This document shows positions 10,559-59,900 of a stretch of 64,000 nucleotides of DNA, one piece after another. How positions within the stretch are numbered: position 1 is the first letter of the stretch; every line of letters starts with the position of its first letter. The stretch is from Trichosporon coremiiforme (lineage: Eukaryota > Basidiomycota > Tremellomycetes > Trichosporonales > Trichosporonaceae): contig BCJJ01000044.1 of the NCBI GenBank assembly GCA_039545355.1, forward strand, positions 1-64,000, given 5' to 3'. Below the pieces are notes generated by a model. The model made no database searches and had not been told where the DNA came from. It saw nothing but the letters and a program-made list of their open reading frames with translations. Position numbers and translations under genes: made by a program.

Positions 10559-11541
10559 TCAGCGGAACAGCCGTCCAACGCTGTTGCGCACCATGCCGGC
10601 TGCGAGCTGGCCGCCGAGTCCGCCAAAGCTGCCGAGCAGGCTTGCGTTCTTGCTCGCCCACCGGCGCTGCGCGTCGCGGTCCGCGTACGTGAAGCCGACG
10701 ACGTTGGAGAGGTTGAACACGAGCGCGAGCAGCACGATCGGCAGGAACCTGATGTCAGCTACACCACTAGCACGGCCAGCTTACGAGACGTTGAACTTGA
10801 GGAAAGAGACGATCAGCAGCGCCGTCCAGCCTAAGGGGTACGCGTAGAGCGCGATCCAGAACATCTTGGCGTCGATCGGGTTCGGAGGACGGCTCTGGGG
10901 CTGAGTATGTCAGTTAACGTCGTGCAGCTCTCAACTCACGTCTCGAGACTCGAAGACCCAGGCACTCTCGCCCTCCTCGTCAACCTCATTCCAATACCGC
11001 AGTCCGACGAGCGTGCGGCCGGCAACGTTCCGCGTGTTCCAGAAGTCAAGTGACAGCAGGACAACAACAACGACAATCTGGTGTTAGCTTCTCCTACGAG
11101 CACACGGAACTCTGTCTTGAGGGCAGGAAAGACACGGCCATACTAACAGAAAGAACATAGTTGTCAGTGACTGAGGTCAGCTTCATGTTCAAGTTATAGT
11201 CAACACAGCTGGGGCCTTCGTTACTCACAAAGCCCGCAAAGGACGTAGACGGCAATGGCGGCTGATCGGAAGAAGTACAGGCAGAGCAGAGCCAGGGGGT
11301 GCGAGCTCGCCTTCAGGATACCAGCCTGAACTGTTAGCTTATCCGGGTATCTACAGGCAGCTGGACTCACGATTCCGCCTTCCTCGACGTCACGCGCGGC
11401 CGTTCCTGGGACGAGGACGACGGGCTCGCTCGTGCGCGGTGTCGGCGAAGCAGCGCCGCCGATGTTGCCCGAAAGGGCGGGAGGCGCCTCCTCGTCGGCC
11501 TCAATCGTCCCTGAGAGCAGCGGCTGGGTCGAGTGCGACAT
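10559..11541 (-). CDS. TVP23: Golgi membrane protein TVP23 (DUF846)
   Basis: Six exons (minus): 11541-11371, 11325-11229, 11170-11148, 11077-10940, 10900-10785 and 10748-10559; 244 aa. Introns are 36-70 nt, and exon 3 is only 23 nt. TVP23 is a late-Golgi vesicle protein working with YIP-family partners in membrane traffic. The family signature is plain in exon 4-5 ([20 protein letters not shown], then [13 protein letters not shown]). Four hydrophobic segments are visible, one or two in exons 2-4 and two in exons 5-6. The N-terminus up to about residue 57 is acidic and disordered. I start at MSHSTQPLL. An in-frame ATG further upstream exists but would add only low-complexity residues. It lies 198 bp downstream of the NRDE-2 gene on the same strand. 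Confidence 0.93.
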
Positions 11542-11739
11542 GGCGGGTTGCGATGGCGGATGAGGGATGTTGAGACGTTGCGTGGAATATTGGCCAGCTG
11601 GTGACATGGCACGCGTCAGTGGCGGCAACGGCCCGGTGGAGGGCTGATTTGGCAGGTACGCCGACCCTGCGGGGACATGAGACACGGAAATGTAATGCAG
11701 ATGCATGCGATGTTACAATTGAGGGATTTGCTACAAAGT

Positions 11740-39290: not shown

Positions 39291-40940
39291 TTAAGGAAGC
39301 TCTTGTTTTACAGGCGACAGTGATACGCGCTTCACGGGGGAGGCACTGCGCGACTTGCTCCGCGACTTGGACCGGATGCTAGTGGCAGACCCAGACCGCT
39401 TCACGGGAGCACTCTCCGATCCCACTCGTCCTCTCGAATCCGCAGACCACGCCGGCATCGATCCGGCGTTCCCTCGGTCCTCCGCTCCAGGTTCAGGCGT
39501 CTTCGGACCGCCCAACCGTAACTTGATGCCGAGCGACGACATCGGGGCTGGGGACGCGACTTCGGCTGGCGTCTGCGGCTGCTGCTGGCTGAGCTTGACG
39601 CGCAGCGGCTTCACGTCCCCGGCCGTACGAGGTGCCACTGCACCCTCCACAGACTTGACGACCTTGCGGCCCGACGGCAGCCGTCCACGTGCGCGCTCGG
39701 CACCCTTGGGGCCAGAGTCCCAAGTGGCATGGAACAGGCATTCCGTTTCGTCCTCGATCGCCTTGCCACGGGCTTTGGCGAGAGCCGCATCGTCGGCTCC
39801 ACGCACTGCCTCGCCGTAAAGAATGGGGCCTTGGTCGTTTGACTGAGGCTGAGGAGGTCGGAGGGATGTAAGGCGCTCCAGGAGAGGACGCCGCAGATAG
39901 GGTGTTCGAATCTGGTGAATGAGTGACGTGATGATACCATCCTTGTTCGGATTGACGGGCAAGAGGCGCGGAGGCAGCGACTCGTGGTGACTCGGGACAA
40001 TGGGCGACACGTGCGGGGGCGGAACGGGAACGGCCATCGTGTCGACGGGGCTGAAGACTTCGGGGTTGCCGATGGCGAGACGGAACATGTCCGCAGCTTG
40101 TCGTCGGCCGTCAGTCTGGCGGAGAGCCACGGACGGCTCCTTCTCCGTGGCAGCGTAGGTGTGCAGTAGAGACTGGAACGAGGACGTCGGTTGCGGTAGC
40201 TTGTCGACAGCGGCTTCTGGCGGATCCGTCCAGGTGTGCGTTTCCCGCAGTTGGGAGGCGTTGTAAGCGATCGGCTGCCTATACCGATCGACGATGGACT
40301 GAGGTTCAGTCGTGGTGTCGGCCATGATTGCGGCAGCTCCGGGGGCTGTCGGGAGCGAGCTCTCCGTGGGAAGAGGCGGCAGCCAGGACATATCCGGAGA
40401 GTGCGGCCGATAGGAGACGCGGGGAGCTGATTGCCCCGCCTCCATCTCGTCCACGTCCATCTTCTCATCCTCTTCTTCCTCCAATCCTTCTTCATCCGCC
40501 TCGCTCTCGCTCTCGTCGGTGTCCCCGTCCTCGTCCTGGACAGGTGCATACTGCATGTCGATTCCTTCCGTGATGTTCAACCCGTCACGAAGGTAAGCTA
40601 TTCGTCAGCCATATCACCACGGGCGCGCCTTACCTGACAAATCCTCCAACTTGCCACCGGTGAACGACACCTCCTTGTCCAAGTCTGCTGTCCATTCCTG
40701 CAGCTCAGAGACACCGCCGACGCCCATATCCTCGAGTGCATGAACAACATCGACCGCAGCGACCTTGGATCGACCAGCGAGGGCGGCCCGTTCCGTGCAT
40801 GTTGCTGCGACGACCGAGAGGTATTGTTGCAGCACGCCCGTCAGTGTGACCGACGCTGCACGCGAGGTCGACGCGAACCCGGCTTGCGCTAGGGTGTGAA
40901 GGGCAGCCAGATGCAGCACGGCCTCTGGTGACGCTGCCAT
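39291..40940 (-). CDS. BTP histone-fold protein, TFIID subunit TAF3/TAF8-like
   Basis: Two exons (minus), 40940-40634 and 40597-39291, with a 36-nt intron, encode 537 aa. Residues ~5-100 form a bromodomain-associated (BTP) histone fold: three helices with LQQYLSVVAATCTERAALAGR and VAAVDVVHALEDMGV. Such folds pair with TAF10 in TFIID/SAGA. An acidic tract (EEEEDEKMDVDEME) and a Pro-rich W-L-P-P-L-P motif follow, the latter recalling TAF8. The C-terminus is a Ser/Arg-Lys repeat tail (SIRSKSRSKSRSASPVKR). No PHD finger is present, so TAF3 and TAF8 cannot be separated. Confidence 0.8.
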
Positions 40941-41683
40941 GGCGGTCGAGTCTCCTTGTGGGAGGTGATGGTGGTCGTCAGACTAGTAGGAGATCGATGA
41001 CTTCGAGCCCGACACTTGAAACGAGAACAACATGACGCGAGGGCTGATGTTGTGGTGCCCACGTGGTGGATGCCACAGGGTCGGCGATCTCCGGCGTTAG
41101 TGCAGAAGTGCATTCTCAGGTTTGCTTCATTCAGCAATGGGGCCTATGCTGGCCAGTGGCTGGTGCGAAGGGACGGCAGGCCAAGTATGCAAAACATGGA
41201 GGAACAGCGTGACAAGGGAGGTGGGCCTTCTGGAAACACGTAGAGACGAGAAAATGTACAGATGCAAAGTTGAGAAGACGATGAAAACGGGTGCCAAAGA
41301 GGAAGTAAGAAGCCGACGTCGACGAGGCTGACCACACATAACACGGACGTTACACCTCCGGGACTCAGTCCCATGACGCATGAACAGCCAGACTCTGAAT
41401 TACCACTTTCCTAGGTGCCACAAAAGGCCTCGGAAATGCGGGAATTGATCTTTTTTGTTCCGTAGGCGGGCGGGTCAGTGGGCCCATACAAACGGTCTCG
41501 TGTGCGGGGCATTGGGCGCTGCACCAGCCCCTGCCACGCACCGTAGCCCACGCGCCAGTAACATTTCTCTGTCACTTGCGCAAATCTTACATCTCTTCAA
41601 CCTACCTTCCACCTGACAACTAAAACCAGTGCGTGTGCAGGCCACCACACACAGCGAGGACGACAATCTGACCCTCACAGAAA
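40941..41683. promoter_or_regulatory. divergent TAF-like / eIF5A intergenic region
   Basis: This is the 743 bp between two outward-facing start codons. The last ~140 bp before eIF5A are strongly pyrimidine-rich (about 41545-41680), the usual core promoter and leader style of highly expressed basidiomycete genes. No TATA box is evident and no coding sequence was seen. Confidence 0.4.
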
Positions 41684-42625
41684 ATGTCTGACGACGAGCA
41701 CCACGAGACCTTCGAGCAGGCCGGCGCCGGCGCCTCGCTCACCTACCCCATGCAGTGGTGTGTATCCGCCCCGATCGAGAATCACGGCTCCGCATCGGAA
41801 ACACATGTCTGACCTACCACAGTTCCGCTCTCCGCAAGAACGGTCACGTCGTCATCAAGGGTGAGCGCGGGCGCCTGAAAGAAGGGACGAAGAATGGAAA
41901 CTGACGTTCAGGCCGTCCCTGCAAGATCGTCGACATGTCCACCTCGAAGACCGGCAAGCACGGTCACGCCAAGGTCCACCTTGTCGCCATTGACGTGAGT
42001 GCACCGTGCACGTGTGGACGGCTCGCGTGGAACGCCCGCTGACCCGCTCAGATCTTCACCGGCAAGAAGCTCGAGGACATCTCCCCCTCGACCCACAACA
42101 TGGACGTCCCCAACGTCCGCCGCACTGAGTACCAGCTCCTTGACATTGCCGACGACTTCCTCTCGCTGATGGACTCGGACGGTGGCTCCAAGGGTGAGTT
42201 TTAGATCCCGCCACACCTCCACCGCCACCACCACCACCACTTCCACACTCTCCACCAAATCTCATTCCACCACCCCGTCACACTTCTTCATCGTTCTCAC
42301 GACTCTACTTCTCAATTTTCCTCCTTGTTTCGGGCGCTGACAGCTTGAGACGACGTCAAGAACCCCGAGAACGACGTCGGAAAGGAGATGTGAGTGCTTG
42401 AGAGTTTTCTGGGAGTCTTTTGGTCATCGGTGGGCTGAGATCGACCTTTTGGTCAAGTTCTTCGATTCCCTCCAGTCTTCCTAACTCTTCGACATACTTC
42501 TGGACATGAAATGCTTACCCAACAGCCAGCAGGCGTTCGACAACGGCAAGGACATCATGGTCACCATCCTCACCGCCATGGGCGAGGAGCAGGCCGTCTC
42601 CTGGAAGGAGGCTCCCCAGTCGTAA
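41684..42625 (+). CDS. TIF51: translation factor eIF5A (hypusine protein)
   Basis: Six exons, 41684-41757, 41823-41860, 41912-41994, 42052-42193, 42350-42389 and 42526-42625, encode 158 aa, the standard length. eIF5A relieves ribosome stalling in elongation and termination. The hypusine site is Lys53 in [12 protein letters not shown]; the N-terminal core [19 protein letters not shown] and the C-terminal OB-fold are fully conserved. Introns 4 and 5 are 156 and 136 nt, longer than average, while the first three are 51-65 nt. The acceptor of exon 5 (CTTGAG) is not a CAG but is fixed by the conserved DDVK.PE sequence. High intron density fits a highly expressed gene. Confidence 0.96.
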
Positions 42626-42746
42626 ACATCGCCTGTTTATTCGAGACGACGATGCAGACTTGATTTCGCTAGGAGAACCGTTGCGGATGGGCATGAGCTT
42701 GTCCTCTATCGGTAAGCATCGCATGTTTATTAGAGACGATGCAGAT
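42624..42746 (+). repeat. imperfect direct repeat at the eIF5A 3' end
   Basis: A ~35-bp unit containing CATCGC-TGTTTATT-GAGACGA-GATGCAGA occurs at 42624-42659, starting within the stop codon, and again with a few changes at 42713-42746. It looks like a local duplication of the 3' untranslated end. Confidence 0.6.
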
Positions 42747-43660
42747 ATCATGGCCTGGAGAAGTTTGAGCGACCCGAGCTCGAAGAAACTGGCTAGGGGT
42801 GGATTGGGGGATCAGCCACCACCACGTGATTATCCGGGCCCACCGATATCACTTACCACGGCGTAGGGTGCATCCTCGCGCTATCTCGCTTTGTCCCTGC
42901 CGAGCCCTCGCAGCTACACCAGGTACGATCGGCACGAGATCAGCCCCGATAGGATCGACAGGATATCAGGGGACCTAGGCGTCGCGACCGCTGGCCTGTG
43001 CCCACGCCTACCGCCCTGCCTGCCTTTCTCGCTAGGGGAGCGACCGGCATGCCTGACTGACCCCAACCCGCTCGCTCGTCGACCAGTGCACTTTCTCTGG
43101 ATCTAACTCATCACAACTAACTGTACTCACTCTGTCTTCCTCTACTTATCCTCCTCGACCGTTACCTCTGGGGCGGCTTCGACAACGTAATGGGTAAGTG
43201 ACACCACACAATCTGTTCTGTTTAAGTGTCCACCCCCTCCCACAATGTTCGCTACCTTCCTCGTTCCCTCTTCAGGTCGTTGACTCAACTGGAGAGAGCG
43301 TTATGAGAGGAAGACCGCCCGACCACTTCCCCCGCAAGCCACTCGCTTCTCGATTTCTCGCCACCTGCAACAGACTGCCCGCAGCGCCGGGACAAAGCAG
43401 CCCTGCGAAGCCAGCGATCATCAATTGAGGTCTATTGCCTTCCCTCCACCCTTTACAGCGCTCGCAAGTGCCCGGTGGCGAAGAATCTTCCAGCTACAAC
43501 CATGATCGTCCCCACGCCCCTGTACGAACGCGTGTCCCTGCCGAGGTCTATTAACTGATGTCTACAGCGACATGTTCACTTCAGTCCTGCAACCACGTCT
43601 GTCTTCCCAGCGCTACTGGATACCTGCACCACCTCATAACCCGGCAAATCGGTCGTCATC
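42747..43660. other. spacer between eIF5A and the finger/OTU array
   Basis: No gene is supported. The plus strand has some splice-like pieces (GTAAGT near 43192, a pyrimidine tract and TTCAG near 43272). The region 43,440-43,660 may hold an eroded start of array copy A, but no similarity to the other copies could be read before about 43,690. A CACGTG lies near 42826. Confidence 0.35.
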
Positions 43661-45371
43661 TTGAGGCAGTGGCGACTCTCCAACTCGTCTGATGCGTCCG
43701 CATGTGTGCGCTACAGAAGCTTCTCAGGAGCGAGCAGCCATCCACTCGCCGTGTCTCTGGCGGCGCATGCTCGCCACCGGCAGCCCATGCGGGTCAATGA
43801 CGATGGACGCACGAACCACACAGTGGAGCTCTGGATCGTGAACCGGTTCCGTACGAGCTGGCGGTGGTCTACGCTGCTGCACGTGCTCGGATGGGTCCAG
43901 CCCTTGCTGCAACACACGATCAACGTGCTCTCGGACCGCGGCATCTTTTAATGCCACCCTGTCGGACGAGTTCAGGTCGACGCCGGCAGCGGAGCGCATG
44001 GCAGTTCAACGGGCTGTCTAGTCTCAAGATCGCATTGCTCCGACCGACGCTGCTGAGTGAGATCGAGGCGCGTGCGACCACATTCCAGCCCAAGGAAGAG
44101 GAGCGCAGGCTCAGCGCTGTGGTGCCCTATCCAGCGACGCCTACCTGCGATGGGTGCGCCAGCGTTGTGGAGGCAGACCGAACGACGTGCCTGGCTTGCA
44201 CGCGCCATGCCAACAGCACTCGGCGGCACGACACTACTTTCGCGCGTCTGACGCGAGCGCAGGCCCAGGCGACCGCCTCTGCGCTGGTCCCCGTACCCGA
44301 GCCACCACAACGGTTCGCTCTGCCGACGCCCTTCCCCGATATGGCCCTCCTGAGCCCCACGGAGCGCTTCTGCCTCGGAGTCTCCTCACTGGACGCTGAT
44401 AGTCTGCCGCCGGTCATGGGGGACTACTCCACATCTTGCATAAATTGCGGAGACCACCTCTTCATCCGTAATGGTGGGATGGGTCGTGCCTGCACGAGCT
44501 ACAAGAGGGCCAAAGGGGAGGATCGCCCCGAGGAGCTGCACGTCATTTTCATCGGACCGTGCCGCGTCTGCGGACAGCACACGCGCCTCGCGAGTCGGCA
44601 CCTCCCCTGCCACGACTGCTGCCGGAACGAAAGGAGCTTCCAAGATCCGACCGCCCCCAAGGTCTGCGCAGCGTGCGGCAGAGGTGAGAAGCGCATCAAG
44701 ACCACGGGCTGGCTCTACGTGTATGACGGCAAGGGTGGCTTGGTCAGTCTACCCTCCTCTCGCGGAATGTGACACTGACCAGTAGCACTGCGACAGCTGC
44801 TTCCATCGCATCCATTACTACGGCCGCCCGCCCGTCCGACTTCCCGACATCCCACACGTCGATCCCGGCACGATCTGTCGTTGCGGTGAGACGATTGTCA
44901 ACTCGTCGGTCTCGATTGGGCTTGAACGGCGAGTATGTAACGCTTGCGCAGCATACGAAGGCCGCATGGGCGTTCCACGGCCGCCCCGTCAGTTCAAGAC
45001 CGCCATCACCGACTGCCCCAACTGTGGCGTCGAAATTAAGCGTGGGCGCAAAGGTCGCTGGGACGGGTACATTGCCAAGTATCTCGTCGGCAACCCACCC
45101 ATCTGCCGCACATGTAGCGGGTACGAGCGGTACCCCAAATGTACTCGCCTGCTGGACTTCATCAACCGATGGACGCTTAACAACGGCATACCACAGCTTG
45201 CGGCGTCACCTGTATGCGTCTTCGGCCCGACTTCGACGGTCCCGGTCACGCACGCTTCCGGATGGTTCCAGGCATCGACCGTCCCTTGCAGCTCCGCCAA
45301 TATCAGGAGCCAAGCGCGACCGCGATGGCGCGTCGTCGGCGCCGCCGGCTAAGCGCAGGAAGAAGGTGGCC
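43661..45371 (+). pseudogene. array copy A, N-terminal part: beta-gamma-delta modules and GATA-like fingers 1-5
   Basis: Beta is in the frame 43661-43951 (FSGASSHPLAVSLAAHARH, RTSWRWSTL) and ends at a TAA that overlaps the next ATG (TAATG). Gamma, delta (CDGC, then DRTTCLACTRH) and the first fingers are in the frame 43951-44741. A likely intron (GTCAGT ... CACTGACCAGTAG, 44742-44784) then leads to HCDSCFHRIHYYGRPPV and fingers 4 and 5 (CNACAAYEGRMGVPRP, CRTCSGYERY) up to about 45200. Another frame change occurs between about 45210 and 45310. Copy C reads through the equivalent of the beta-gamma join without a break, so at least one lesion here is probably real. Alternatively, undetected introns remain. 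Confidence 0.6.
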
Positions 45372-46475
45372 ATGATCCACGTCCCCGATGCCGAATGCCG
45401 ATGCGGGGGGTCTATGCGCCGCGGCCGCAAGCCCTCGTTATTCTACCCCGAAAACGTGTGCTCATCGTGTGTGAGATATGAACGGCTACAAGGTGCTCCG
45501 CGGCTTCCCCACCTGTGGAAGGGTGCCATCACTCCCTGCGCCAACTGTGGTGAGTTTGTCCACCGCGACCCGCGCCAGCGGAACGAGTGGGCGGGACATG
45601 CCTCCAAGTTCATGGAGGACAGCCCGCAGGTCTGCCGTACCTGCAATCCGTGTGAGATGGCGGAAAAAAAGCTCCGTCCGCTCGAGGACATCTACAAGTG
45701 GCGGGAGGATGGCCGCCGCCGCCGCCTCGTCATAGGGGAATTCCCTGGCGATGGAGATTGTGCTCTGCATCCCGTCAAGCGCGTTCTCCCCACCTTAACG
45801 GACTCCGTCGCCGATGTCCGGGCCAACTTGGCCTCGCACCTGCTCGCCGACCTGCAAGAGGTCGAGCTCTACCCTATCACGGTGGCAGAGTACGAGCGGA
45901 AGGGAGAGGATATCGATGCCTTGTCGAAGGCTGAGCGCAAGCTGCGCAAGCGGCTCGGCAAGTACCGCCGACCTGGTCCTAGGGGTGAAAATTGGATCGA
46001 TAACAAGACGGTCGTCGGGATCGCCCGCCACTACCACATGGACGTAGTGATCCTGAACCCAGACGCGAGCTGGACGGTCGTTGAGGAGATATCTGGGCAG
46101 GCGGTGCCACGCCGTGCTCACGTCGCTTTGGCGGGAGAGCACTACCGACCCCTGCTCCCAGCGCCGACCACCGACCACGGGATTGACATGATCTCATCTG
46201 CTCCTCTTCCTTTCCTCGACGACGTCTCGATTCAGCTCGACCAGCGCCGAGCTCGCCTTCAAGCTGTGGCTCGGGGGACTGACCTCGTCACCGGACTCGA
46301 CCCCATCGATCGACTCGACTTCTCCGCCGCCGCGCCCAAAAGTTCTGCTGCCATGCGAGCGACGGCGCAGAGTCTGATCCAGCATGTCTCGGCCGCACGA
46401 GACCGACTCGAGCTCGCCCGCGCCCTCGCGCCCGAACCCCACCCCGTCGCCCCCCTCCTCGCCACCGCAAAATGA
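45372..46475 (+). CDS. array copy A, intact ORF: two GATA-like fingers plus OTU-like protease domain
   Basis: An uninterrupted 367-aa frame from an ATG just after a basic PAKRRKK motif; the frame is also open upstream. Residues 1-110 hold two C2C2 fingers (CRCG...CSSCVRYERLQGAPR; CANCG...CRTCNPCE). An OTU-like cysteine-protease fold spans about 118-265. GEFPGDGDCALHPVKRVL has the D-G-x-C catalytic loop, then a helix (VRANLASHLLADL), WIDNKTVVGIARHYHMDVVI, and HVALAGEHYRPL with the expected C-terminal His. The tail begins QLDQRRARLQAVARGT (theta) and continues in frame beyond the stop at 46521-46745 (LEPTDDILFPGFDPLL). Function is inferred: a nuclear, possibly DNA-binding deubiquitinase-like protein. 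No exact family is known to me. Confidence 0.6.
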   Translation: MIHVPDAECRCGGSMRRGRKPSLFYPENVCSSCVRYERLQGAPRLPHLWKGAITPCANCGEFVHRDPRQRNEWAGHASKFMEDSPQVCRTCNPCEMAEKKLRPLEDIYKWREDGRRRRLVIGEFPGDGDCALHPVKRVLPTLTDSVADVRANLASHLLADLQEVELYPITVAEYERKGEDIDALSKAERKLRKRLGKYRRPGPRGENWIDNKTVVGIARHYHMDVVILNPDASWTVVEEISGQAVPRRAHVALAGEHYRPLLPAPTTDHGIDMISSAPLPFLDDVSIQLDQRRARLQAVARGTDLVTGLDPIDRLDFSAAAPKSSAAMRATAQSLIQHVSAARDRLELARALAPEPHPVAPLLATAK

Positions 46476-46757
46476 CGACGACAGCTTCAACGCGCGGTAA
46501 GGGCCGCAGCAGCACCGGTCGTGACCGTGGAAGGGCCGGTCGAGGTCGAGGTCAAGGTCGAGGTCGAGGAGGAGCTCTCGACCCGCATCCGTGGGTGGCT
46601 TGAGGGCAACCACCCCCATCTCGAGCCTACCGACGACATCCTGTTCCCCGGTTTCGATCCGCTCCTTCAAAAGGCGGAGAACCTCGCGGACCGCGTTTCG
46701 GCCATGCATCCCTGTGGTGACAAGCGCTCTCAAATCTTCCTGTAGCGCAGCGGCCGT

Positions 46758-47338
46758 GTGGCGCCATCACCTTGGCATGCCCCCGGGAATGTCCACGTGC
46801 CCTCTTGGGCTTTGAACTGGGCCAAGGGCGGCACGATTGAAAGTGACATCCCGCTCGTGATGCTCGCAATCCGGCTGCGTCAGGCGGGCTGCTCAACACT
46901 CGGCATCGCCGGTCTGCTCCGTCTAACCGCAGCTTGCGCGCGGCGTCGATGTGCCGTGGATCTCCCAACGATGAGGACAAGCTCGCGGATGGAGGATCGA
47001 GACCGGTTCAGTCGCTTCCTGTCGAATGTCCATAGGAACGATCACGAGTTCAAGTGGATGGTACCGCTCCCCGAGCCCAACATCGAGCGCATCATTCGCG
47101 GCTATTGCTATAGGGGCGAAGTCTCGCCGGACCATCTCGACGAGCTGGAGCACGAGGTACTGGGGATGCTTCGGGAGATCGATCGTGTTGAGAAGGAGTA
47201 CCCAAATGCGACGCCCCTGATGAGGAGCGGGGACCGCTGTCCCACACTCTTCTTTCAGAGCAAGACGCCGACCCGAGCCATGGTCCTGCTGCTCGCGCTG
47301 ATGCGGGGTCGTGTCGAGGAGGAGTGCGACAAAGCGTT

Positions 47339-47385
<47 letters not shown>

Positions 47386-47935
47386 CTCAATCCGCGCAAC
47401 AACGAGCTCAACACTTTCCTCGACCTTGCCCGTCCCGCTCTCCGCCATGGGTACCGCAGGTCGGCCGATACAGTAGGGTTCCTCGACGCCGTTACGGGTC
47501 TACCGGGGTGTTTCTCCAGCGACACTCACCACCCCCTCCATGTGTCACTGGCCGCACACGCCCGCCACAACCAGCTCATGCGGTTCAACACTGGTGTTCA
47601 CACCAATCACTGCGTTGATTTGCTCGCTGGTTCGACGCGGTGTTTTTCCAGCCTGTGGACTGCCCGATGAGCTCGAGCCATCGTCGCAGCTCCGCGACAC
47701 GTGGAGCGAGATTGCGCTGTCGTGGGACGAGGTCTCTCGTCTGCGCCCTTCACTTCTGGAGGACTCCGCCCTCCTCAGGTTTGTCGGCGCTGTGGGCAGT
47801 ATGAGCGATACCAGGGCATCGGCTGGCCCCTGCATGTGATCGACAATTACAAGAAGAGGAGGGGTTACCCGCGATCACGAGCCCACCTCTCGCGGTCGTC
47901 TCCGCCTCGCACAACGACCCCAGCGCTGTGAAGCA
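46758..47935 (+). pseudogene. array copy A', truncated: alpha, poly-C tract, beta, gamma, finger remnant
   Basis: Alpha is at 46980-47340 (EPNIERIIRGYC, PDHLDELEHEVL, GDRCPTLFFQ, EECDKAF). The FPPDP segment of other copies is replaced by a 43-nt C run. Beta follows at 47450-47630 (GYRRSADTVGFLDAVTGLPG, HARHNQL), but one frame away from alpha. The rest of beta is lost, gamma is a short remnant (DTWSEIALSWDEVSRLRPSL), and the copy ends with half a finger (CRRCGQYERYQGIGWP) near 47780-47840. This is a deletion derivative. Confidence 0.6.
47340..47382 (+). repeat. poly-C homopolymer tract, 43 nt
   Basis: A run of 43 C residues, followed by T and more pyrimidines, lies exactly where other array copies encode F-P-P-D-P. 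The frame before it (alpha) and the frame after it (beta) differ by one base. The length may also be an assembly or sequencing artefact. Confidence 0.9.
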
Positions 47936-49107
47936 TGCACCCAGATGCCACGCCGGTATTTAGTACGCCTATATTCGGCGAGACTCCCACTCGCAGAAGT
48001 AAGAGCACGTAAACACCCTACTCGTTCTGCATGCCGAGGACCACTCCGACACAGCTGAGAACCGTTTGTGGCAGAAGAGCCCTGTTTTTCGCATTTTACA
48101 AGTTCGTGCGTAGGTTTTGACATGAACAGCAGTTTTCGATGTCTACACGCGTGGTCTGCGGGTGAAAACTTACGTGACTCAAGCCAATGTGAGCCCTCGG
48201 CATTCCAACAAGGTAGACCCTCCGACTCCGCTAAGCGGTTACTGGTGGCGTCCACCAGCTCGTCCGGTTCATGATGTGCCAGCGCTGCGGAGCGACCGCG
48301 ACGCACAGCACGCATGGAAAGCCTTGGCCATGGCACCTCAACCGAAGGTTCGGCTTCAGCACTCTACGGCAATTGCCGTAGTGTGGAATGCGGGGAACCT
48401 ATGACCCTGAGACGTTGACAACGTGCTGCCCTCCTCTCCCTGGTGCTTTATCACAGAAGTACACCTTCCCTCGCAGCTTTCTTAATTCTACCTCATCAGT
48501 CAGCTAGCCCCAGATCTCCGTTCCAAGCATGTTTCAGTTGGTTGAGGTCAATGCCAGCAGACACCGGCTACCCTATATTTCAATCACAAGCTCTTCCGGC
48601 TCCGAACCTCACATCTTGAGCGTGACCTGGCGGCCCAGGCGGGGAGGATGCCGCGGCAAGGTATAGAGTGGAACAGGCCATGGCGTGCGTTAGTGACTGA
48701 GACGGTGCAACATTGCGTGTGAGGCGCCCAATTTGCCGACCAGAACCTCCGCGGTGGGCTAGTTGTTGTCACTCCAGGGCGAGCTAACAGTGTAGCTGAA
48801 CAACCTGGGAGCGGCCCAGCTTTCTGTGCTGCTGACAGCAGTTACCGTTTCAGCGGACGTCCGTTGACCCCCACATTACCACCCCTTTCGGAGATTCTCC
48901 CTGACCTAGACCTCGCACTAGAGCAGCGCGGTGGATGTGCTTCTGCCGCTCCAAGTTAAGTCGGGCCTGCGTTTAGGGTGGTCTGTCGGCCACCGTCTGG
49001 AAGCCCAGCCCTTCTCAAGACGAAGTGCAGATGGTCTCGTGAGGATTTAAGTACGTTCTCGACGTCTCGCGACTGACTTTTTATCGACTTCTATGCTCAA
49101 CTGAGAA
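47936..49107. other. spacer inside the array
   Basis: No array module could be read here and no other gene was recognised. Short frames on both strands are ordinary. It separates copy A' from copy B and is the only sizeable non-repetitive gap in the array. Confidence 0.4.
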
Positions 49108-49179
49108 TTGATCACTACACACCCTGACAAGCTTCCGCTCACCACCACTCCCTCCTTCATCGCTCTCCAGCCCAAGTTC

Positions 49180-51186
49180 ATGACCGACTGTCCAATATGT
49201 CGCTACCTAACCTCACCTACGCCCGCCTCGTCGCTCCGGCGACTTCACACACGGCGTCCCTTTCCGCCCACAGCCGTCTTCCCCGCCCAGATCGCTGTCC
49301 CCCAACCCATCACCGAGTCCCAGACCGTGTGTGTCCTGTTGAAGAACACCACTCACACGTCCAGGCCCAGGACGACCAATCTGATGCAGTTTTGAGCGAA
49401 AGGACCGTTACGACCCGCCGCCGCCGCGCGCGCAGCCCCGAAGCTGTCAGCCCGCCCTGCACCCAGGCGGCTGTAGCGTCTCGCGTACGTTGCATGATAA
49501 GGATACCACTGACTCGCCAGGCGCGCCGCATCCCCTCCCCCCCGCCCCACCACCACCCCCACGCCTGCCTCCGTCGCCACCACGGTACGTTGCTACCCCC
49601 AGCTTGCCACTGACACTCCCAGGCGCGCCGCTGCCCCGCCCCACGCCCCACCGCTGTCCAGCGCAACCCATCCCCCCTCGCCACCACGGTACGTTGCCGC
49701 TCCCAGCCTGCCACTGAGATCCAGACCACTTCGCCCGCCGGTGCAACCGTTGCCCCGTCCGCTCTCCCTTCTCGCGCGGCGCCGGACACTATCCCCAGGC
49801 TGTGCCGATCCCCTCAACCCCATACCTCGCCTACGCCAGTCCCGCCAGTTGGCTCGCCGCCGCCCTCTCCCGCCCACCGCCACAAGCGAGCTGGTCGTAC
49901 GTCTCCGCCACCCGTCGCCTCAAGTACGCCCGAGCCTTCTGCCCAGCCTGCTCTGACCCGTGCCTCTGGATCTGGCGCCGTCCCTACTGTTGCCTCTGCG
50001 GCTAAGCGCAGATCGAACCCAGTGAGTGCCTGCCTCTTGACAAAAGTTGTGCAGAGTGAGTTGCGCTAACGCGTCAGGACCAGAGCACGCTGTCTTGGCA
50101 ATTGCGCCAGACGGCGCATGTGCATGGGTACTGCATTGTGACGTACCGGGAAAGGGCAGTTGTGGGCTGCACGCGCTCAAGGCTAGCGTCCCCGAAATCG
50201 AGGACCCGATCGACGTCATGCGCCGCCAGCTCGCTGATCACCTGCTCGCCTCGCTGAGCGACGGATCAACGGAGCTGCTGCTGGCGGTCGAGGCCAACAT
50301 GGCACCGGACGCCGAGTCGGGCACCGAGAGCATGGACACTGGTGGGGCGTTGAACGACCTCACGGAGAAGTACAACGCCTACCGCCCATTCGGCGTCAAT
50401 GGCGGCAAGGGTGCCTGGGTCGACCTGCACGCGCTGGTAGCCCTGGCGAAGATCTACCGTGTAGACTTTGCAATCCTCTACCCCGACGCCTCGTGGACAA
50501 TCATCCGCGAGCGTGACGGACACTCAGCACCAAACTGCGCCCGCATTGCGCTGTTGCAGACGCCAGCTCGGCTCGCCAGCAGACGGGGTCGTGAGTCTCG
50601 CGAAGGTCGCTCGCCGAGGCTCAACCACACTGCGTCGGAGGAGCTGAACAATGGCTCCGGCCACTTCATGGCGTTGCGACTTCTCGGGTCGGACGAGGAG
50701 CCGCCTTCGGTGACGACGTCACACGGTCCGAATCAGTCAGCAGCATGCAATCCCAGCTCGACCGACGCGCTGCTCGGGTTCGGGCGGTTGGGAGCGGCAC
50801 GACAACGATCGCCGAGATGGACGACTTCGATCGCCTATCGATCGAGCGCGCGCTGATTATGGCTGAGCTGATGACTCAGGCTCGTTCGATCCCCTCCTTG
50901 CGTGATAAGTGGCGAAGTTGCCTCCTCCGAGACTTCGAGACGGTCGAGGATGACCGCACCCAGGTGGCCATTCGTGCCCTCCTCGATGACCCCAGCGCCA
51001 CCTCAGCCAACCTTCCGCAGGCGTTCCAGTCTGCTTAGCATGCAGACTGGACCGAGTGGTCCGAGGAGGCACTCACCAATTGTCTCAAGGACTGGCTGCA
51101 AGTTCATATGGAGCGGCTCGAGCCGTCCGACGACACGGTGTCCCCCGGCCTCGGCCCCCTGCTGCCGCGAGTCAAGAACGTCAAGC
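49180..51186 (+). pseudogene. array copy B: Pro/Ser-rich leader, OTU-like domain, theta module
   Basis: The copy may begin at the ATG at 49180, after an intron-like pyrimidine/CTCTCCAG stretch (MTDCPICRYL, a CxxC). Then come 0.8 kb of Pro-rich low complexity with local tandem repeats, and SAAKRRSNP at about 50010, equivalent to PAKRRKK of copy A. The OTU-like domain is open from 50047 to 50856: CDVPGKGSCGLHALKA (catalytic Cys loop, with K in place of the first acidic residue), WVDLHALVALAKIYRVDFAI, and a C-terminal SGHFMALRLL with His. Theta follows in another frame at 50745-51038 (QLDRRAARVRAVGSGT), and LEPSDDTVSPGLGPLL comes before 51197. Alpha to zeta are missing. Frame changes suggest decay or unrecognised splicing. 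Confidence 0.55.
49497..49730 (+). repeat. short imperfect tandem repeat, about 105-bp unit
   Basis: The elements CCACTGAC...CCAGGCGCGCCGC and CCACCACGGTACGTTGC recur at about 49500, 49610 and 49710 (third copy partial). The sequence is Pro-coding on plus and Gly/Trp-coding on minus. It sits in the leader of array copy B. Confidence 0.55.
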
Positions 51187-51196
51187 TCTACTACTA

Positions 51197-52636
51197 GTAA
51201 AGCTGACGACCATATCGGAGGGCTCCTCTGCCGGACGGCTGCTATCCGAACGGCGTCAATACACCGCGCATTCGTCGTTGTCCAGGATAAGAAGGACTTT
51301 GTGGAGGACTACTCAGAGCTTGATGAGTTCGTGGCTGGCCACCGCAACTGGTGCCAGTGGCTGAGTCTTCTGGCGCTGCCCAACATCGAGCGATTCATCA
51401 GGAACCACTGCACAACTCGCGCCAGTACGCCCGAGGAGCTCGATGCCTTGGAGTACGAGCTGGTGCGTATCATGCCACAGATCGACCAAATCGAGGCAGA
51501 CCATCTTCGGCGCTACCCGTCGGCAACGCCGCTGATGCGCAAGGGGGACCGGTGCCCGACGCTCTTCTTCCAGGCCGCCACTCGCACTCGCGACATTTTG
51601 CGCCTGCCGATATGAGTTCGTTCGCGGTTTAAGATGGAGTGCGACAGGATGTTTCCTCCGGACCCACACAATCGGAGAGGTACATCCTGCTGGACCTTGT
51701 CCGTGTCAGCCTGTCCAGCGCGCGACCGACATTGTCGGCTTCATGGACTCGGCAACCGGTCTGCCGGGATGTTTCTCCGGGGCTGCCTCCCATCCTCTCG
51801 CGGTCTCGTTTGCCTCGCACGCCCGACACCGACAGCCAATCCGAGCGAACGCCGGTGGCCACACCAACTACTGCGTGGAGTTGTGGCAAGTCAACCTCCT
51901 GCGCAAGTCGTGGAGGTGGTCGACGTTGGTGAATGCCCTGCAGTCAGCGGCGGATGTGCTTGGCAACCTGCTCGCCGTTCTCGTCAAGCATCGCATTGTC
52001 GCACCAGGCACGGAGCTGCAGTTCCACCCTACCCGAGAGCTGTACGATGCGTGGTCCCGCAATGGCCTCTCCAACGAGGGGTTCGTCCCTCAGCGTCCAT
52101 CTCTCGCTGGCCAGCAGCTCACCGACGCGTATTTGGACGAAGAAGCCGAGAGTCTCGGGCAGGTGACGGTGGCATCATCCGACGAACCGGCTTGCGACGT
52201 GTGCGACAGGGCCGTTGACGCTGATCGATCTACCTGCGTCCCGTGTGCTAAGCATGAGTTGTCTGCGCGACGCTACGAGAACACGATCGCTCGCATCGAG
52301 AATGCCGCTCGGCGCGTCTGCTGCTTCAGTGACCTACCTCCCCTGCTCGTTTCGGTTCCGACCTTTGTCCCGCCGCCGCCTATCCTACAGCCATCCACGC
52401 TCGTCCCCACCGACCCGACCAGCTTGCGACTGGGCTCGACCCCCGGAAGTCGGCGATCTCCCGCAAGTCGAGCCAACTCCGCGCGAATCTTAGGCGGCTC
52501 ATCCCCCACTATCAGGTCGGCCTTCCTTCCCCCCGAACACTTCGAGCAGCTCGAGGAGCAGCTCCGTGCCGTGTTGGCAGAGATCGACAGCTTCGAGATG
52601 GAGTACCTCCGCCTTCACCCATCAGCTACCCCCTGA
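51197..52636 (+). pseudogene. array copy C: alpha-beta-gamma-delta, fused to the next copy's alpha
   Basis: Alpha is at about 51280-51660 (LPNIERFIRNHC, PEELDALEYELV, PSATPLMRKGDRCPTLFFQ, ECDRMFPPDP), with a TGA at 51613-51615. Beta to delta are one clean frame from 51743 (MDSATGLPGCFSGAASHPLA, HARHRQPIRANAGGHTNYCVE, CDVC...DADRSTCVPCAKH). After a Pro/Ser linker the frame passes straight into alpha of copy D (EQLEEQLRAVLAEIDSFEME, HPSATP) and stops at 52636. All fingers, the OTU domain and theta are absent, as expected after recombination between two copies. The 297-codon chimeric frame 51743-52636 is intact and could still be expressed. Confidence 0.6.
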
Positions 52637-55173
52637 TAAGGAATGCCAGTGGCTGCCCGGTCCCCTTCTTACCTCGGCCGACGAGCACACGGGACATGCT
52701 TCACCTCTTCCGCTGCATCCGTGCGCGGATCGACGAGGAGTGCGACCGCGCGTTCCCGCCAGACCCCGGCAACGACGAGATGGCAATCCTCTGTCAACTC
52801 GAATGAGTTGCTTTGAGCCAGGGTTATCATCGCTCGGCGGACCTCGTGGGCTCTGTCGACCTCGCGACAGGTTTGCCAGGGTGCTTTTCCGGTGCGTCAT
52901 GGCTCCCGCTTCAGGTTTTGCTTGCCTCACACGCAAGGCACCACCAGCTCCTGCGCCTGAATGCAGGCGCCGAGACAAACCACGCGACTGAGATTGGGCT
53001 CGTCAATCATTTCCGCAAAGCCTGGCGTTGGCCGGCGCTCGTAAATCTCCTCGAGTCCGCCTTCTCTGGCTCCAGTCCTGGAAGCGCTCGTGCGCCATGG
53101 CGTTCTCTTTGCCTGCACCTTGCCTTCCTTTGAGCCAAGCGCCGAGCTTCGGAGCGCATGGCTGCAGAATGGTATGTCGTGGCAGGAGATCGCTGCAACG
53201 CACCCGTCGTACCATCGGTACGTTCGGGATCTGGAGGCTACGTTCCAGGCGGAGGAAGAGCACCGCATCGCACAAGTTCAACCTGCGATCTGGATGATGA
53301 ACAGCGCATCGTGTGCGGCGTGGCTCTGCGTGCCGATCAAGATCGAAACATGTGTGCACCCTGTCGGCGTCACAACCATTATACGAGGCAGCACAACCGC
53401 ACGCTCCAGAGGCTCAAAAGCGCTGCTCGTGCTCGGCCAGCTGCGTCCCTCTCCCAGACTGCAGCACCACAGTCGCTCTTCACCCCCCCTCCTCTCCCTG
53501 ACGCTCTTCATACCACCTCGTCTGTGGGGTTCAGGAGCACGCATGCTTCGGAATTGGGGCTGACGACACCTACGACTTGCCGTTCGTTCTTGTCTCGCTT
53601 CCTGCGCTCAATGTAGGAGATCATCTCCAGGAATGCCGAGTGTGTAAGGACAACCGGTACCTACTGAATGGTGGACTGTGCAGTACTTGCGACGACTATG
53701 AGAAGCGGTACGGAGTGCCCCGACCGGAGTGCCTACATCCGCCGCCGTTCGGAGTGCGTCTCGTCTGTGGGGTGGAGAAGCGTCTCGCGTGTCTGGACTG
53801 TCACCCAGTCGAGCAGACGCGCATGAACCGCGATGCTGAGAGGCGATGTGCAACATGCGGGAGAAGGGAAAAGCCCATCCAGACGAGTGGATGGACGAAA
53901 GCCTATGATGGCAGAGGCGGCTGGTGAGATTTGCTGCCACTGACCGATAAAGCTGACAGATAGTATTGTAACTCCTGCCGGAAGCGAAGGCGCAACGAGC
54001 TTCCTATGGTGCCCCTCCCAGATCTTGACCATGTTCCTGTTGGAACGGTGTGTCGGTGCGGTGTTGTCATCACAGGCAACGCCAGTGTCTCGCCGTCTCT
54101 GAACGAACGCGTCTGTCAGCCCTGTGGGCGCTATGAGGCGCGAGAAGGAGTGCCACGACCTCGCCACCTCTTCCAGGGCGTTGTCACCCCCTGCGCGGTG
54201 TGCTAGGAACGCATCGAATTCTATGAGAAGGACAAAGGTCACTGGCAAGGCTAGCCGTCTCAGTATCTGCCCGGTCGGCCACAGATCTGCAAAACATGTG
54301 GTCATTACGACAAGAAGGGGAAGCTCCGATCGCTGCGGATCATCAACCAACGCCGCGAGCGTCTCAGACTGGCCCTGCTGACGGCGTCGCCGGCCAGTTT
54401 GTTCCCGCGCCCTGTCGCCGCGGACCCCGGCGGCTACGTGCGGCCTGCTGTTGCGACCGGCACCGCCCTGCTTGCCTCACTTGCCGTCGCCTTGGTCTAG
54501 CCCGCTCCAATTGCACTGTCGCTCCCGCCCTCGGTGCCAAGGACGCAGACCGCTCTCCATGGTCGCGTCCGCCTGTCTTTCTCCCTGGATCTGCGATTTT
54601 GAGCCTGGCTTCGCCACCGCCCCCTTCATCAAGTCCTAATCGGACCGCAAGGGGAGCGTCGAGGGCCCGCCCAAATCGGCCGCAACCCCCTCGTGCCTCC
54701 ACTCCCCGCCCCTCCGCTCGCCGCGGCACCAGCGCCGCTCTCCCGCTCTTGGTCCGCTCTTCCAGCTCGTCTCCAGAGCCGATCTCACCGATGTCGCCGA
54801 GGTCGGCCCCAGGCCTCTTGAGCCTCCACCCCGCAGCCAGCTAAGCGACGCCGCTCGTCCTCGTCGCAGCCAAACCCCAACTACAGCGCCTCGCCTTCGC
54901 CGAGCCACAGCCAAGGGCAGGAAGCGGGCCAGGTCACCACCGTCCAACTCGCCAGCTCCAAGTCCTCGACTGTTGACTCCAGCGTCCCGCCGTGCTCGCG
55001 TGCAGCGCTCTACAAAGCGACCCGAATCTTATGCCGATACGCCGCCAGACCAGTTGGAGGAGGACAATTGCGACACAGATGCTGATCCAGAAAACGGCCC
55101 AGGATCCTCTGATGCTGAAGGGCTCCCAGATGCATCCCACCGAGATGGTCTTGACCTCGAGTATTCGTGGTAG
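52637..55173 (+). pseudogene. array copy D: alpha remnant to fingers, no OTU domain
   Basis: Alpha ends at 52740-52806 (DEECDRAFPPDPGNDE). Beta follows in the same frame after one TGA (GYHRSADLVGSVDLATGLPG, HARHHQLLRLNAG, WRWPALVNLL). Gamma (LRSAWLQNGMSWQEIA) and delta (NMCAPCRRH) are in different frames. Fingers run from 53620 (CRVCKDN, CSTCDDYEKRYGVPRP) to 54340. The fifth finger contains two TAG codons (54204-54206, and one near 54252) between CAVC and CKTCGHYDKKGK. The remainder is Pro/Ser/Arg-rich with AKRRR near 54850, ending in an acidic tail and LDLEYSW at 55173. The OTU and theta modules are absent. Confidence 0.6.
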
Positions 55174-55421
55174 CTGTTGCGCCGATACATAGCTCATGCA
55201 CTACTATGCTTGCTGCAAGCTTCGACTGCGATACACTCTAAGGTGGAAGTCTGGATGATTTTCGCGGATGAGAGGCTAACGCCCACTATAGCATGTCAAA
55301 GGACCAGAGAAGACGAAGAAGATGCGTGTAAATGAGTAGAGATCTCGCGAGTGGGTGGCAATGCGTTGCAGGTTGGTCCTGAAGTCCAGACCCCACCTGT
55401 GCTACGAGCTCTATTAAATCT

Positions 55422-56105
55422 CTAGTACTTCGCCTTCTGTCCCTCTCTCGCCGCCTTGGCCTCGGCCCGCTCCCGGAAGAACGTCGTCCAGGCCTCCAAG
55501 TCGTCGCGGGGAATAACGTGACCGCCCCTATCGTCAGCTTCCACTCAACACCACTCCTCACAGTCCACGGAAACTCACGAGTGCACGATAAGATCCGGAT
55601 TCCTAAACATCTCACTCAAACTCTCACTAGCCCTAGGGGGCACAATATCGTCTGTCTCTCCCCAAACGTGCAAACTCCTCCTCCCAAACCCGGGGTTCCC
55701 TTCCTCATAGTTCCGCCTCAGTTCGACGTCCCTCGCCTTGAACCCGCCAATAATCACCCCGAAGTCGAACTTTTCTCTGAATTCGGGCATGAGGCAGAGC
55801 AGCGAAGTGACGACTGCACCCTGGGAGAAGCCCAGAACTCCATCAAACGGGCCCTGCTTGTCGAGAATGTCGTGCAGGTACGTGCGCGACTTGGGCCAGC
55901 CCTCGTACACGGCATACTCGGACTCGGGGATGTCCTGCGATCGCCACCAAGCGAACCCGGGCTCGACGGGGAAGGGCGCGTCGACGAACGTGAAGCTCGC
56001 CCACGGGGCCGAGGCGTCGACGACAGGGGCGAGTTGACGCGCGAGACGCGCCGCGGAGGACGTGAAGCCGTGCAGGCACAGAATCCTGAGTTTGGACGCT
56101 GCCAT
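55422..56105 (-). CDS. FSH1: FSH1-family serine hydrolase (OVCA2-like)
   Basis: Two exons (minus), 56105-55579 and 55527-55422, with a 51-nt intron, encode 210 aa, the usual length. This is a small alpha/beta hydrolase of unknown natural substrate. Motifs: LRILCLHGFTSSA (oxyanion region), GFSQGAVV with the nucleophile Ser near residue 101, ETDDIVPP with the acid, and SGGHVIP with the His supplied across the splice junction. The splice is fixed because it completes the catalytic SGGH. The C-terminus is a charged helix. The frame is open upstream of the chosen ATG, but that part is Pro-rich leader. Confidence 0.92.
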
Positions 56106-56775
56106 GCTGGGTGTGGTTCGAGTGAGGAGAGACGGTTGGACGGTAGATGGAGTGGACAACGGTGTGGGCGGACACGGCGGAGGCCGATCCGGATATCTCG
56201 GCAACTTGGGCCCTTGCCGGCTAGGCACAAGTACACGCCATTCTGGTCGAACACTCAGCCGCGTGTTTGTGCGAGCGCGTCTTCAGAGAGTCCATTGGGG
56301 ACCATGTCTGAGGAAGGAATGGAAGCGGCTGCAAGCATGGCAGTGGAGTGGAGATAGACGTGTGACTGGCACGCATCTTGGGATCTGCCCCTCGGAGGGC
56401 GAGATCTGGCACTGTTTGATCACCTGGCCTAGATCGAGACTCGAGCCCCACGGGGCGCCCCAGTGAGGTGCTGTCTACCTCCTTTGCAACCGCTGTACTC
56501 CTGTGGTCTGTACACTCCCACTCGGTCCTGCTCGCTCGCTGCGCTCGCTACCAGGACTTTTCACGTTAATCATTCATGGCAGTGTATATCTTTATAGTAG
56601 TACGTAGTGTATAGCGTCTTTACGCGCGGGGTATATCGGTCTTCTGTCAACTTTCAAAACAACTGTTGGTAAACTCCTGGGCTCCCAAAATGGCGACTGT
56701 AAGGGCGAAAAAAGTGACGGGTCGTCGGAAGAAGGAATAGGCCGGTGAAGGCGTGGAGCAGAGGAGTGCCAGAGT

Positions 56776-56963: not shown

Positions 56964-59900
56964 TCACTTGCCCGGCTGGGCGGCCTTGCGCTCCTGCTGC
57001 TTGAGCATGCGGAGGCTGATGGCGTTGCGTAACGCCTCGACGTACGTCTCATACTTGAAGATTTCCGAGTGAATGTAGCGCGATTTCGCGGTCCAGTTTT
57101 CCCGCGCCTTGCCGAAATTCTTGCTCCCCGGCGTGTACAGCCTGGACATGGGCTCCTCGATGCTCTTATGCTGGTCCAGCTCCTCCTTCAGACTCTGTAC
57201 GTACATCAGCAGCGCCTCGAGCTGCGCCTCCTCGTCCAGGTTTGACGGCATCGTCGCGTGCGGCGGGGGCTTCCACTCGACAATGGTCATCTTGTCGAGG
57301 TTTTGCGAGCCGCGCGAGCGCATCGCGCCGAGTCGGGTCATGGAAGGTGAGGAGCGTGAGGAAATGACGCTGGGCGCCTCGGTGGCGTCGCCGTTTTCAT
57401 CCAGCACACGCGTCCAGCCGTACTCAATGTTGGACACGCCGCCGACGAGCGGTTGCCGCGACTTGCGCGCGGCCCAGTAGTTGCACGTCGCGACCCACTC
57501 GGCGACCAGCTCCTCGGTACCCGCCTGGTACACGCTGATCTCGCCGGTTGGGAACGTCACCGTGAAGCAGTACGGCCGCGAAGCGCTGTAGCCCGGTTTC
57601 GGCAGCGCCATGGCCATGGCGTGCATGAGCGAGTACTCGCCGGTCGTTTTCGCGTTGGACAGCCAGTTGCCGCCGCCCATGCCGCCCATGCCCATGCTCG
57701 GGCCCTTGGAGCCCTTCTCGCCAAATACAAACATGTGCAGGTCGCCCTTCTGGATGACGACAAAGTATTGCTTCCAGTCTTTCTTCTGGTGCTTCTTGCC
57801 GGCGGCCTCGACCTGGATCTTGCGGGAGAGCAAACCCTCCTTGGCCCAGGGGGCGCCGAGCAGCGCGAGCTCGTCGTCGCTGAGGGGCTCGAGGGTGACG
57901 GTGGACTGGTTGCTCTTGATGCTGTGGGCTTCGTCTTCCTGCTCGCGGATCACGGTGTGCGACAGATTGCCGGCGAAGCCGATGGCCGGGGCAATTGTGG
58001 CCTAACGTTAGCGTGCTGGGGAAACTATTGTGCGGCGAGAGGGGTCCTGTGTGGCCTGCTTGGCACTGTGTACCCAGGGGGTATCATTGGCAACCGCCTC
58101 GGACGCGCTAACTCACCTCTCCAATCGAGTTCGCGTACGACGGCGTCGGCGACAACCTGCCGTCCGAGTGCGCAAACACGCCGCTGCCGTTGTAGGGCGA
58201 GTCGCCCTTGACCGAGGAGCGCTTGAGGGGCCCGATACCGCGGCGGTTGTAGCTGTTGAGGGACAAGGACGACTTGTCAGCGGATCCAATCGGCAAGAGG
58301 ATCTTCTCGTTGCGGACATTGCTGTAGATCTCCTTGAGCGCGGCTTCCGCTTCCACCTCCCACTGCTTCGTGTACGTGAACGAGTTGACTGTCGTCGACG
58401 ACGCGGCGCGGGATCGCAGGTCCTGGCTCGAGGGAGAGGAGAGCTCGGACGCAGGAGCCAACGAGCCGCTCGCGTTGCGGCTGTTAGCGGGCTGGCGGAG
58501 ACGGGTAATTGACGAGGTGGATTGGGCCGCAGTGGACGTGCCGTCGACTCCGCGGAGGGATCCACTGTCGTTGTGCGACTCGAGATCCTCTGGCATCGAC
58601 TCTTGGATCGCGCGCATCGCGTTGCGAACAAAGTCTGCCCGCGACATGTGCTTCTGCAACTCGGCAATGTGCAGGTCCGTGTTCAGCATGAGCATGGCGG
58701 CGGTAACCGTATGCACGACGCCGGGTGTGCCGAACACCGTGTTCGGGTTGCAGTCAAAGTATCGCGCCGAGAAGCCCTCAATGATGCGGTCAATCTCCTG
58801 CGACTCGGCCTTCAGGTGCAGTTTCGCACAGAGGTCGCGGAACGCCTGGTCGAGCTTGCTGCCGCGCATGTCAAAGTGCTGCATGTAGTGCCGGAGCGTC
58901 GCCGTGTTGACAGCCTTGGGCCCACCAAGGAAAATCGCGACCTTGTCGGTGGAAACGTGTGCCGAGTCGCCCTGGTAAAACTCGCGGGCGAGCTGGTGGG
59001 CGCGCTCCTCGTCGTCGGCTGGTAAATCATCGAGACTGGTCGTCGACTGGTGCGGCGACTGGGTCACCTCGATCGCAATGTTGTCGTCGTGTCGTGTCGG
59101 GACCATCTTGATCGTCGGCTCGCCCTTGACGGGGACCGGCGGGGGCACGAGGTCCGTGTCCGAGTTGTCAGCGAGGGCGGACTCGATCACGGCAGTTCCC
59201 TCGGGGGCCTGGGCGTCGTCGTAGCGGCTCGACTGGGTGGAGGAAGCAGAAGATTTGCCAGAGACCGGAACAGGAGCAGCGTCCGGAAGGGTCGTGCTGT
59301 CCTGATTGGCGGGCGACAAGGGTGACGCAGAACGCTGCGAGTAGCGGGAGGGGTCAGGTGACACCTGCAGGTGCTCTGTAGTCTCAGGACCCATGCCCAC
59401 TCCGACGGGGGGGTCGCCGTGGCTGATCCGATCTAAGAGGCCAGTCACATCGTCAGAGAACGAGGTGCTGGCTCGACGTGGCGGTTTGGGCTCAGCCTCT
59501 GCCGTGGAGCGACGCGACGTCGAGCGCTCCTCAGTGGCGCCGCGCTGGAGCATGTTATGCACCCGGGTCGAGGGCTCCTTGCCGGGATCCTGCGGATCGA
59601 CAATGACCTCTTGTGCGGAGTGAGCCGAAGAAATCGAGATGCGGCTTGGCTCGTGCGGCTCAGCCATACCAGGGACCAAGCCACCGGAATGGCGCTGAGG
59701 AAGAGGCGGACGCGCGTTGCCATTGGACTGGGGCGACTCGAAAGTGAACTGGGCGTTGCCAGGGAACTGGGGCGAGAATGACGAGGGCAGCTGGGGAGAG
59801 ACGTTGGACTTTGGCGAACTGACCTCGGCGTTGGACCTGGTGGAGAGGCTCAGCTGAGAGGGCGAGTTGAGGTTGGGTGGAGAATCCCGGTCTTTATTGT

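Follow-up and report, generated by a model that had tools for sequence, protein, structure and literature searches.

OTU cysteine proteases carry a Cys box, D-G-x-C, and a late His, and GATA-type zinc fingers follow the spacing C-x2-C-x17-20-C-x2-C. Two of the closest described systems are mobile: Ginger1 holds a zinc finger and an OTU-like protease in one element, and OTU domains also occur in Helitron proteins (PMC2836005, in the portions consulted). Here we describe an array of zinc-finger and OTU-like gene copies in a 64,000-base window, the start (bases 1-64,000) of a 98-kilobase (kb) contig in an assembly of 42.0 Mb and 134 contigs. In the literature searched we found no paper combining the array's features, and the main text of PMC12820176, in the parts available, mentions neither OTU nor zinc finger. 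By protein comparison the array is an OTU-like gene lying upstream of a zinc-finger gene, that is, two gene types, and we lean towards reading it as the decaying outpost, between the genes for eIF5A (left) and an FSH1 hydrolase (right), of a lineage-specific gene family with fast turnover.

The array comprises six copies, all on the + strand, in the order ZF-A, OTU-A (with finger F4), ZF-B, OTU-B, ZF-C and ZF-D:

43718..45184, + strand: ZF-A, a zinc-finger copy with M2, M2b, M3, F1-F2, a predicted intron (44743-44785) and F3; no supported 5' part
45372..46475, + strand: OTU-A, an open frame of 367 amino acids (aa) from ATG with F4 (finger at 45384-45704), the OTU-like domain (45726-46175) and tail T1
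46557..47860, + strand: ZF-B, with T2, M0, M1, a C run, M2, M2b, an internal deletion and a possible finger end
49197..51038, + strand: OTU-B, with a Pro-rich N-terminal region, a predicted intron (50022-50077), the OTU-like domain (50128-50700) and a TAG at 51036-51038
51060..52444, + strand: ZF-C, with T2, an M0 remnant, M1, M2, M2b and M3; truncated upstream of the fingers
52514..54404, + strand: ZF-D, starting within M1, with M2, M2b, M3, F1-F2, a GT..AG stretch and F3; its end was set by protein-level module matches

Comparing stop-free frames of at least 25 aa with one another, we obtained 33 protein-level self-matches at E<1e-3 within 43,000-56,000, 15 of them at E<1e-8, against 0, 0 and 6 (none below 1e-8) in three 13-kb controls taken elsewhere in this window and 0 or 1 in each of 20 shuffles made in 3-base blocks. 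Control stretch 1-13000 was the source of the six weak matches. The modules recur on the + strand in a consistent order; minus-frame matches were also listed, nearly all of them opposite the same places as the + modules. An earlier note on this DNA had described modules recurring in one order on one strand and had set repeated protein-level diagonals as the test; those diagonals are present, and its proposal of tandem duplication with rearrangement is likewise borne out. Its extent for the array, 43661..55173, held in that modules lie where it put them; supported matter spans about 43,718-54,404, and the relatives described below match nothing beyond. Paralogous copies on the same strand, the mark of a lineage-specific tandem gene family, are thus what is found. 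As DNA the copies barely resemble one another, with four short direct-repeat families of at least 25 nucleotides (nt) in 40-60 kb, two of them about 100 bases apart within one Pro-rich stretch.

The division into two genes comes from relatives. Protein searches were run against 5.8 billion proteins, each scoring only 7,992-7,997 candidates; because only candidates sharing most words were scored, distant relatives may have been missed. Six relatives were found in all, one with an organism name, Trichosporon asahii. The copy A frame retrieved T. asahii A1Q2_08148 (P0001, 614 aa) and P0002, a zinc-finger composite query retrieved P0003 (620 aa) and P0004 (534 aa), both open and with source tag lgn, and an OTU profile query added P0005 and P0006. 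A1Q2_08148 (strain CBS 8904; UniRef name 'OTU domain-co...') is OTU-like, open and without fingers. It is 62% identical to OTU-A over 234 aa and, unlike OTU-A, has no finger ahead of the OTU part; its last 60 aa can be aligned with the end of OTU-B, its N terminus only weakly so, and both A1Q2_08148 and P0005 terminate at the position of OTU-B's TAG. P0003 is open from M0 through F2, lacks OTU, and stops about 18 nt inside the position that copy A's intron occupies. P0003 and P0004 share with the array's zinc-finger copies the module order M0/M1-M2-M2b-M3-F1-F2 and, unlike them, are open frames. Since the relatives hold the OTU and zinc-finger parts separately, the single ancestral gene of 4-5 kb that the earlier note had proposed is ruled out in favour of two.

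Only in copy A is a finger (F4) joined to OTU within a single open frame. In P0006 (130 aa) the linker and the OTU part are preserved, with 90% identity to OTU-A over 45699-46043; this protein gives no proof of a finger-OTU fusion elsewhere, since it begins at 45,699, after the finger's final cysteine (45,651). Downstream of OTU in the array comes the segment T2, which adjoins M0 at two dispersed loci of the same genome, L035 and L038 (at L038 in another frame), and lies beside M0 also at L032 and L034 (spliced alignment of L032 to L034, by eye). Because no OTU match was found at these four loci, T2 is assigned to the zinc-finger protein. A viral origin was rejected, P0003 and P0001 having no relatives among the viral contigs searched (two of eight scans) and OTU-B none among phages, as was a prokaryote source, P0003 (the zinc-finger protein only) being unmatched among the prokaryote contigs searched.

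P0001 and OTU-A carry GDGDC and GEHY, resembling the OTU Cys and His boxes, and thus show both hallmarks of the class. In OTU-B the Cys box reads GKGSC, the Asp being substituted; inspection by eye also shows a GHF, which is not aligned opposite GEHY. An OTU profile search gave weak matches (nairovirus L OTU and OTUD3; E 0.011 and 0.098). The array is like these OTU cysteine proteases in its Cys and His boxes and unlike them in finding no match to the Pfam OTU model, searched at E<=1 and then at E<=10. An AlphaFold2 model of the OTU-like part had a predicted local distance difference test (pLDDT) score of 44, too poor for its fold to be read. Motifs, UniRef name and weak profile matches together weakly suggest an OTU domain. 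As for the fingers, the GATA spacing is absent: F3 and F4 open with C-x-C, and the F1 loop of ZF-D has 11 residues. A profile of five finger pieces reached GATA-4 chains in the PDB (8vg0, E 1.2e-4; 2m9w, E 1.3e-3), and also ribosomal L31 and topoisomerase I (E 0.015-0.04); the Pfam GATA model gave no match at E<=10. The fingers would therefore resemble GATA fingers weakly, being alike in the profile match to GATA-4 and different in the C-x-C pair and short F1 loop. What the earlier note had called GATA-like fingers and an OTU-like protease survives as a likeness that is weak but present, with no Pfam match to either. It had also known of no described family, and we found none; in the pieces scanned nothing matched Pfam above a curated cut-off.

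Each of the six copies, four of them zinc-finger and two OTU, carries at least one disruption in spliced alignments that allow frameshifts and introns, and five of the six are truncated or internally deleted. ZF-A, aligned to P0003 aa 260-620, is frameshifted near 43949 and 43983; its intron bounds were read off the sequence as predictions. OTU-A is frameshifted near 46449 relative to P0001, with a truncated tail. ZF-B matches P0003 aa 1-221 at 74% identity, interrupted by a single TAG (46743-46745); it shifts frame at the C run and again near 47626, has a further, self-compensating shift pair (46,932/46,988), lacks P0003 aa 297-326, and has its possible finger end at 47773-47859 (E 0.0016). 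The C run itself, 43 nt at 47340-47382, lies at P0003's FPPDP motif and is either an expansion or an assembly artefact. OTU-B aligns with P0001 aa 238-370 and 555-614, with frameshifts near 50138 and 50848; its N-terminal alignment (from P0001 aa 1) is weak and of low complexity, and contains a TGA at 49611 unless this is spliced out. In ZF-C, T2 similarity (51060-51182) begins about 20-35 nt past the OTU-B stop; the copy aligns to P0003 aa 68-490, interrupted by a TGA (51613), by frameshifts near 51673 and 51714, and by a third shift at its weakly aligned end. ZF-D, aligned to P0003 aa 137-614, has a TGA at 52804, frameshifts near 52628, 53059, 53336 and 53524, a further shift where its alignment begins weakly, and F3 interrupted by two TAG. 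Its 40-nt GT..AG stretch (53924-53963) is the counterpart of the copy A intron, and excision would break the frame.

The copies are old. Over 897 aligned codons pooled from copy pairs, mismatches at codon positions 1/2/3 were 0.40/0.33/0.63 and four-fold sites were 72% different, counts that are not independent since the pairs overlap and from which the F3/F4 comparison within copy A was excluded. Silent sites are near saturation and the protein modules are kept; F3 of ZF-A is 48% identical to F3 of ZF-D. From saturated silent sites, persisting modules and disruptions in all six copies, our reading is one of long protein constraint and then late decay. The earlier note had taken shuffling to be ongoing; because the copies are old, no sign of present-day shuffling is seen. 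A working locus, with expressed copies whose frame changes reflect introns or errors of assembly, would fit the two predicted GT..AG introns and OTU-A's open frame with its Cys and His motifs. We consider it improbable, however, since stops and shifts fall inside conserved modules of every copy even with GT..AG introns allowed, ZF-B has internal deletions, ZF-A, ZF-C, ZF-D and the OTU-A tail are truncated, and the 609-aa frame of a neighbour is open.

The family extends beyond the array. Searched against the genome that holds the array, P0003 matched eight fetched loci outside the array (best E per locus 1.1e-15 to 0.0136), and L039 as query added loci on C20 and C17, matching array M0 at E 0.006 and L034 at 2.5e-9. 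Ten fetched dispersed sites hold parts of the zinc-finger protein core, and such own-genome counts are lower bounds; a further weak P0003 match (E 0.093) lies at C3:1297938. The idea that the array is unique in the genome was dropped once P0003 matched these members. L039 (5520-4108, - strand) is a core-only member, stop-free for 443 aa across one predicted GTAAGT..AG intron, without fingers and a few kb from eEF1A; with it the idea that all members are broken was dropped too. L036 contains a SAP-like stretch (E 0.0016, under the Pfam cut-off). L036 and L040 are homeologous sites that share a family gene:

L036, 3387-5609: family gene
L040, 5626-3429: its counterpart, 71.7% identical

Next to this gene is a 2.7-kb stretch with SDH1 that is 91.5% identical. 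Windows of 150 nt in the gene were mostly 0.66-0.80 identical versus 0.41-0.63 for the DNA either side, and one exon of 144 codons had position mismatches of 0.19/0.13/0.44. Because the homeologous sites share it, the gene appears to have stayed put here through the parental split. The NDH2 gene likewise has a 93% identical homeolog elsewhere in the assembly, and since both examined places (L036/L040 and NDH2) have homeologs the genome is probably hybrid. Given the T. asahii relative and the published Trichosporon hybrids (PMC6642101, in the parts available), a Trichosporon hybrid is likely. The eIF5A gene, a Sec7 gene and the gene at 39-40.6 kb have no close second copy in the assembly, and because the tested flanking genes lack one the array's own empty site is unreadable. 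The flanking genes so tested lie within 39291-42700 and 58108-59937, in an assembly that otherwise looks hybrid.

At the NDH2 site the homeologs differ. L034 holds about 3.65 kb (2832-6489) with a family member that shows frameshifts against P0003 and a C terminus that is cysteine-rich by eye; in its homeolog L045 the flanks are adjacent. Within L034 2601-6700 the motif TTATATG occurs at both edges of this stretch only, and it occurs once in the L045 empty site, although it may be a mere TATA-like element. We conclude that the family has probably spread to new genomic sites. This presence and absence, core parts at ten dispersed sites, several of which show frameshifts or stops in spliced alignments (unreliable at 25-45% identity), and the OTU domains known from Ginger1 and Helitron proteins would also suit relics of an undescribed DNA transposon, with the core T2-M0-M1-M2 as mobility protein and OTU and fingers as accessories. 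That alternative is possible, though on balance unlikely. In the pieces scanned, which for the family gene itself were five of the ten dispersed loci, Pfam matched no transposase, integrase, reverse transcriptase or helicase; the earlier note had seen no mobility enzyme either. The array shares a zinc finger and an OTU-like domain with Ginger1 transposases and differs in having neither a DDE integrase match nor convincing terminal inverted repeats; with Helitron proteins it shares an OTU-like domain in a dispersed element, here with no Rep/helicase match. No inverted pair of at least 25 nt joins the array ends. Thirty inverted pairs of at least 14 nt exist in 42.6-55.6 kb, and among the 25 longest, which were examined, one spans both ends (43466-43483 / 54609-54626, 18 nt, 83%) and looks like chance. 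The ends of the L034 insert have no inverted 10-mer in common, two stretches of array DNA found no second place in their own genome by DNA search, and L036/L040 keep the gene at homeologous sites. A stronger form, which we regard as rather doubtful, is that the OTU-like and zinc-finger genes together make up the complete, two-gene version of a new Trichosporonales class of mobile element, with the T2-M0-M1-M2 core as an undescribed mobility protein; such an element would carry its own deubiquitinase and insert next to housekeeping genes that are strongly expressed.

The pairing of the two genes also raises a burnt-out selfish drive or conflict pair, in which they act together. Fixed gene order, with T2 similarity so close behind the OTU-B stop, the faster divergence of the L036/L040 gene (71.7% vs 91.5% for the neighbouring stretch), patchy presence (L034 vs L045) and the decay of all array copies would agree with it. 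There is no direct evidence of drive, however, and relatives of the two genes are listed on contigs of unlike size; we hold it to be very improbable.

Several observations weigh against the lineage-specific gene family that we favour. Beyond the missing Pfam matches for OTU and GATA, neither of the two structure models could be used (pLDDT 44 and 40). The frameshifts may partly be assembly errors, and an ordinary host family should have an intact finger-bearing copy, of which none was seen. In the own-genome search OTU was found in the array only, so the OTU/zinc-finger pair may be local. The L039 intron was picked from two candidates, and the P0003 alignment put a different intron there plus a frameshift. 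At L036/L040 the frame 5081-5770, as drawn, mismatches about equally at the three codon positions (0.36/0.36/0.34), and the majority of indels have lengths not divisible by three. Lastly, the empty site in L045 could come from deletion rather than from insertion in L034; one pair fits either.

As a lineage-specific family it would expand through tandem duplication and, probably, through insertions elsewhere in the genome as well. Its core, carrying GATA-like or SAP-like attachments, would be located on DNA or chromatin, where the OTU-like partner, given its predicted activity, would remove ubiquitin. Unequal exchange between copies may have produced the truncations and the finger-OTU joint of copy A, and loss of whatever drove the system may have led to the decay of the array copies.

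The genes bordering the array are:

41684..42626, + strand: eIF5A gene, left neighbour (Pfam PF01287, E 1.4e-8 on exon 42052-42192; extent by eye)
55575..56282, - strand: FSH1-type serine hydrolase gene, right neighbour (Pfam PF03959, E 1.3e-33)

Seven of ten independent loci lie beside housekeeping genes of translation or respiration, an impression taken without a random-region baseline. The neighbours, identified by Pfam, are:

array: eIF5A
L033: complex I 75-kDa type
L034: NDH2
L036/L040: succinate-dehydrogenase flavoprotein
L037: uL14
L038: dihydrolipoyl-dehydrogenase type
L039: eEF1A
L032, L035 and L041: no housekeeping neighbour

With this locus comes an undescribed protein core of fast turnover whose attachments are interchangeable (fingers, SAP-like or none), together with an OTU-like partner, in a host whose genus is likely one of opportunistic yeasts. 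The site at which a family member is present in one subgenome and absent from the other makes the choice between gene family and mobile element directly testable.

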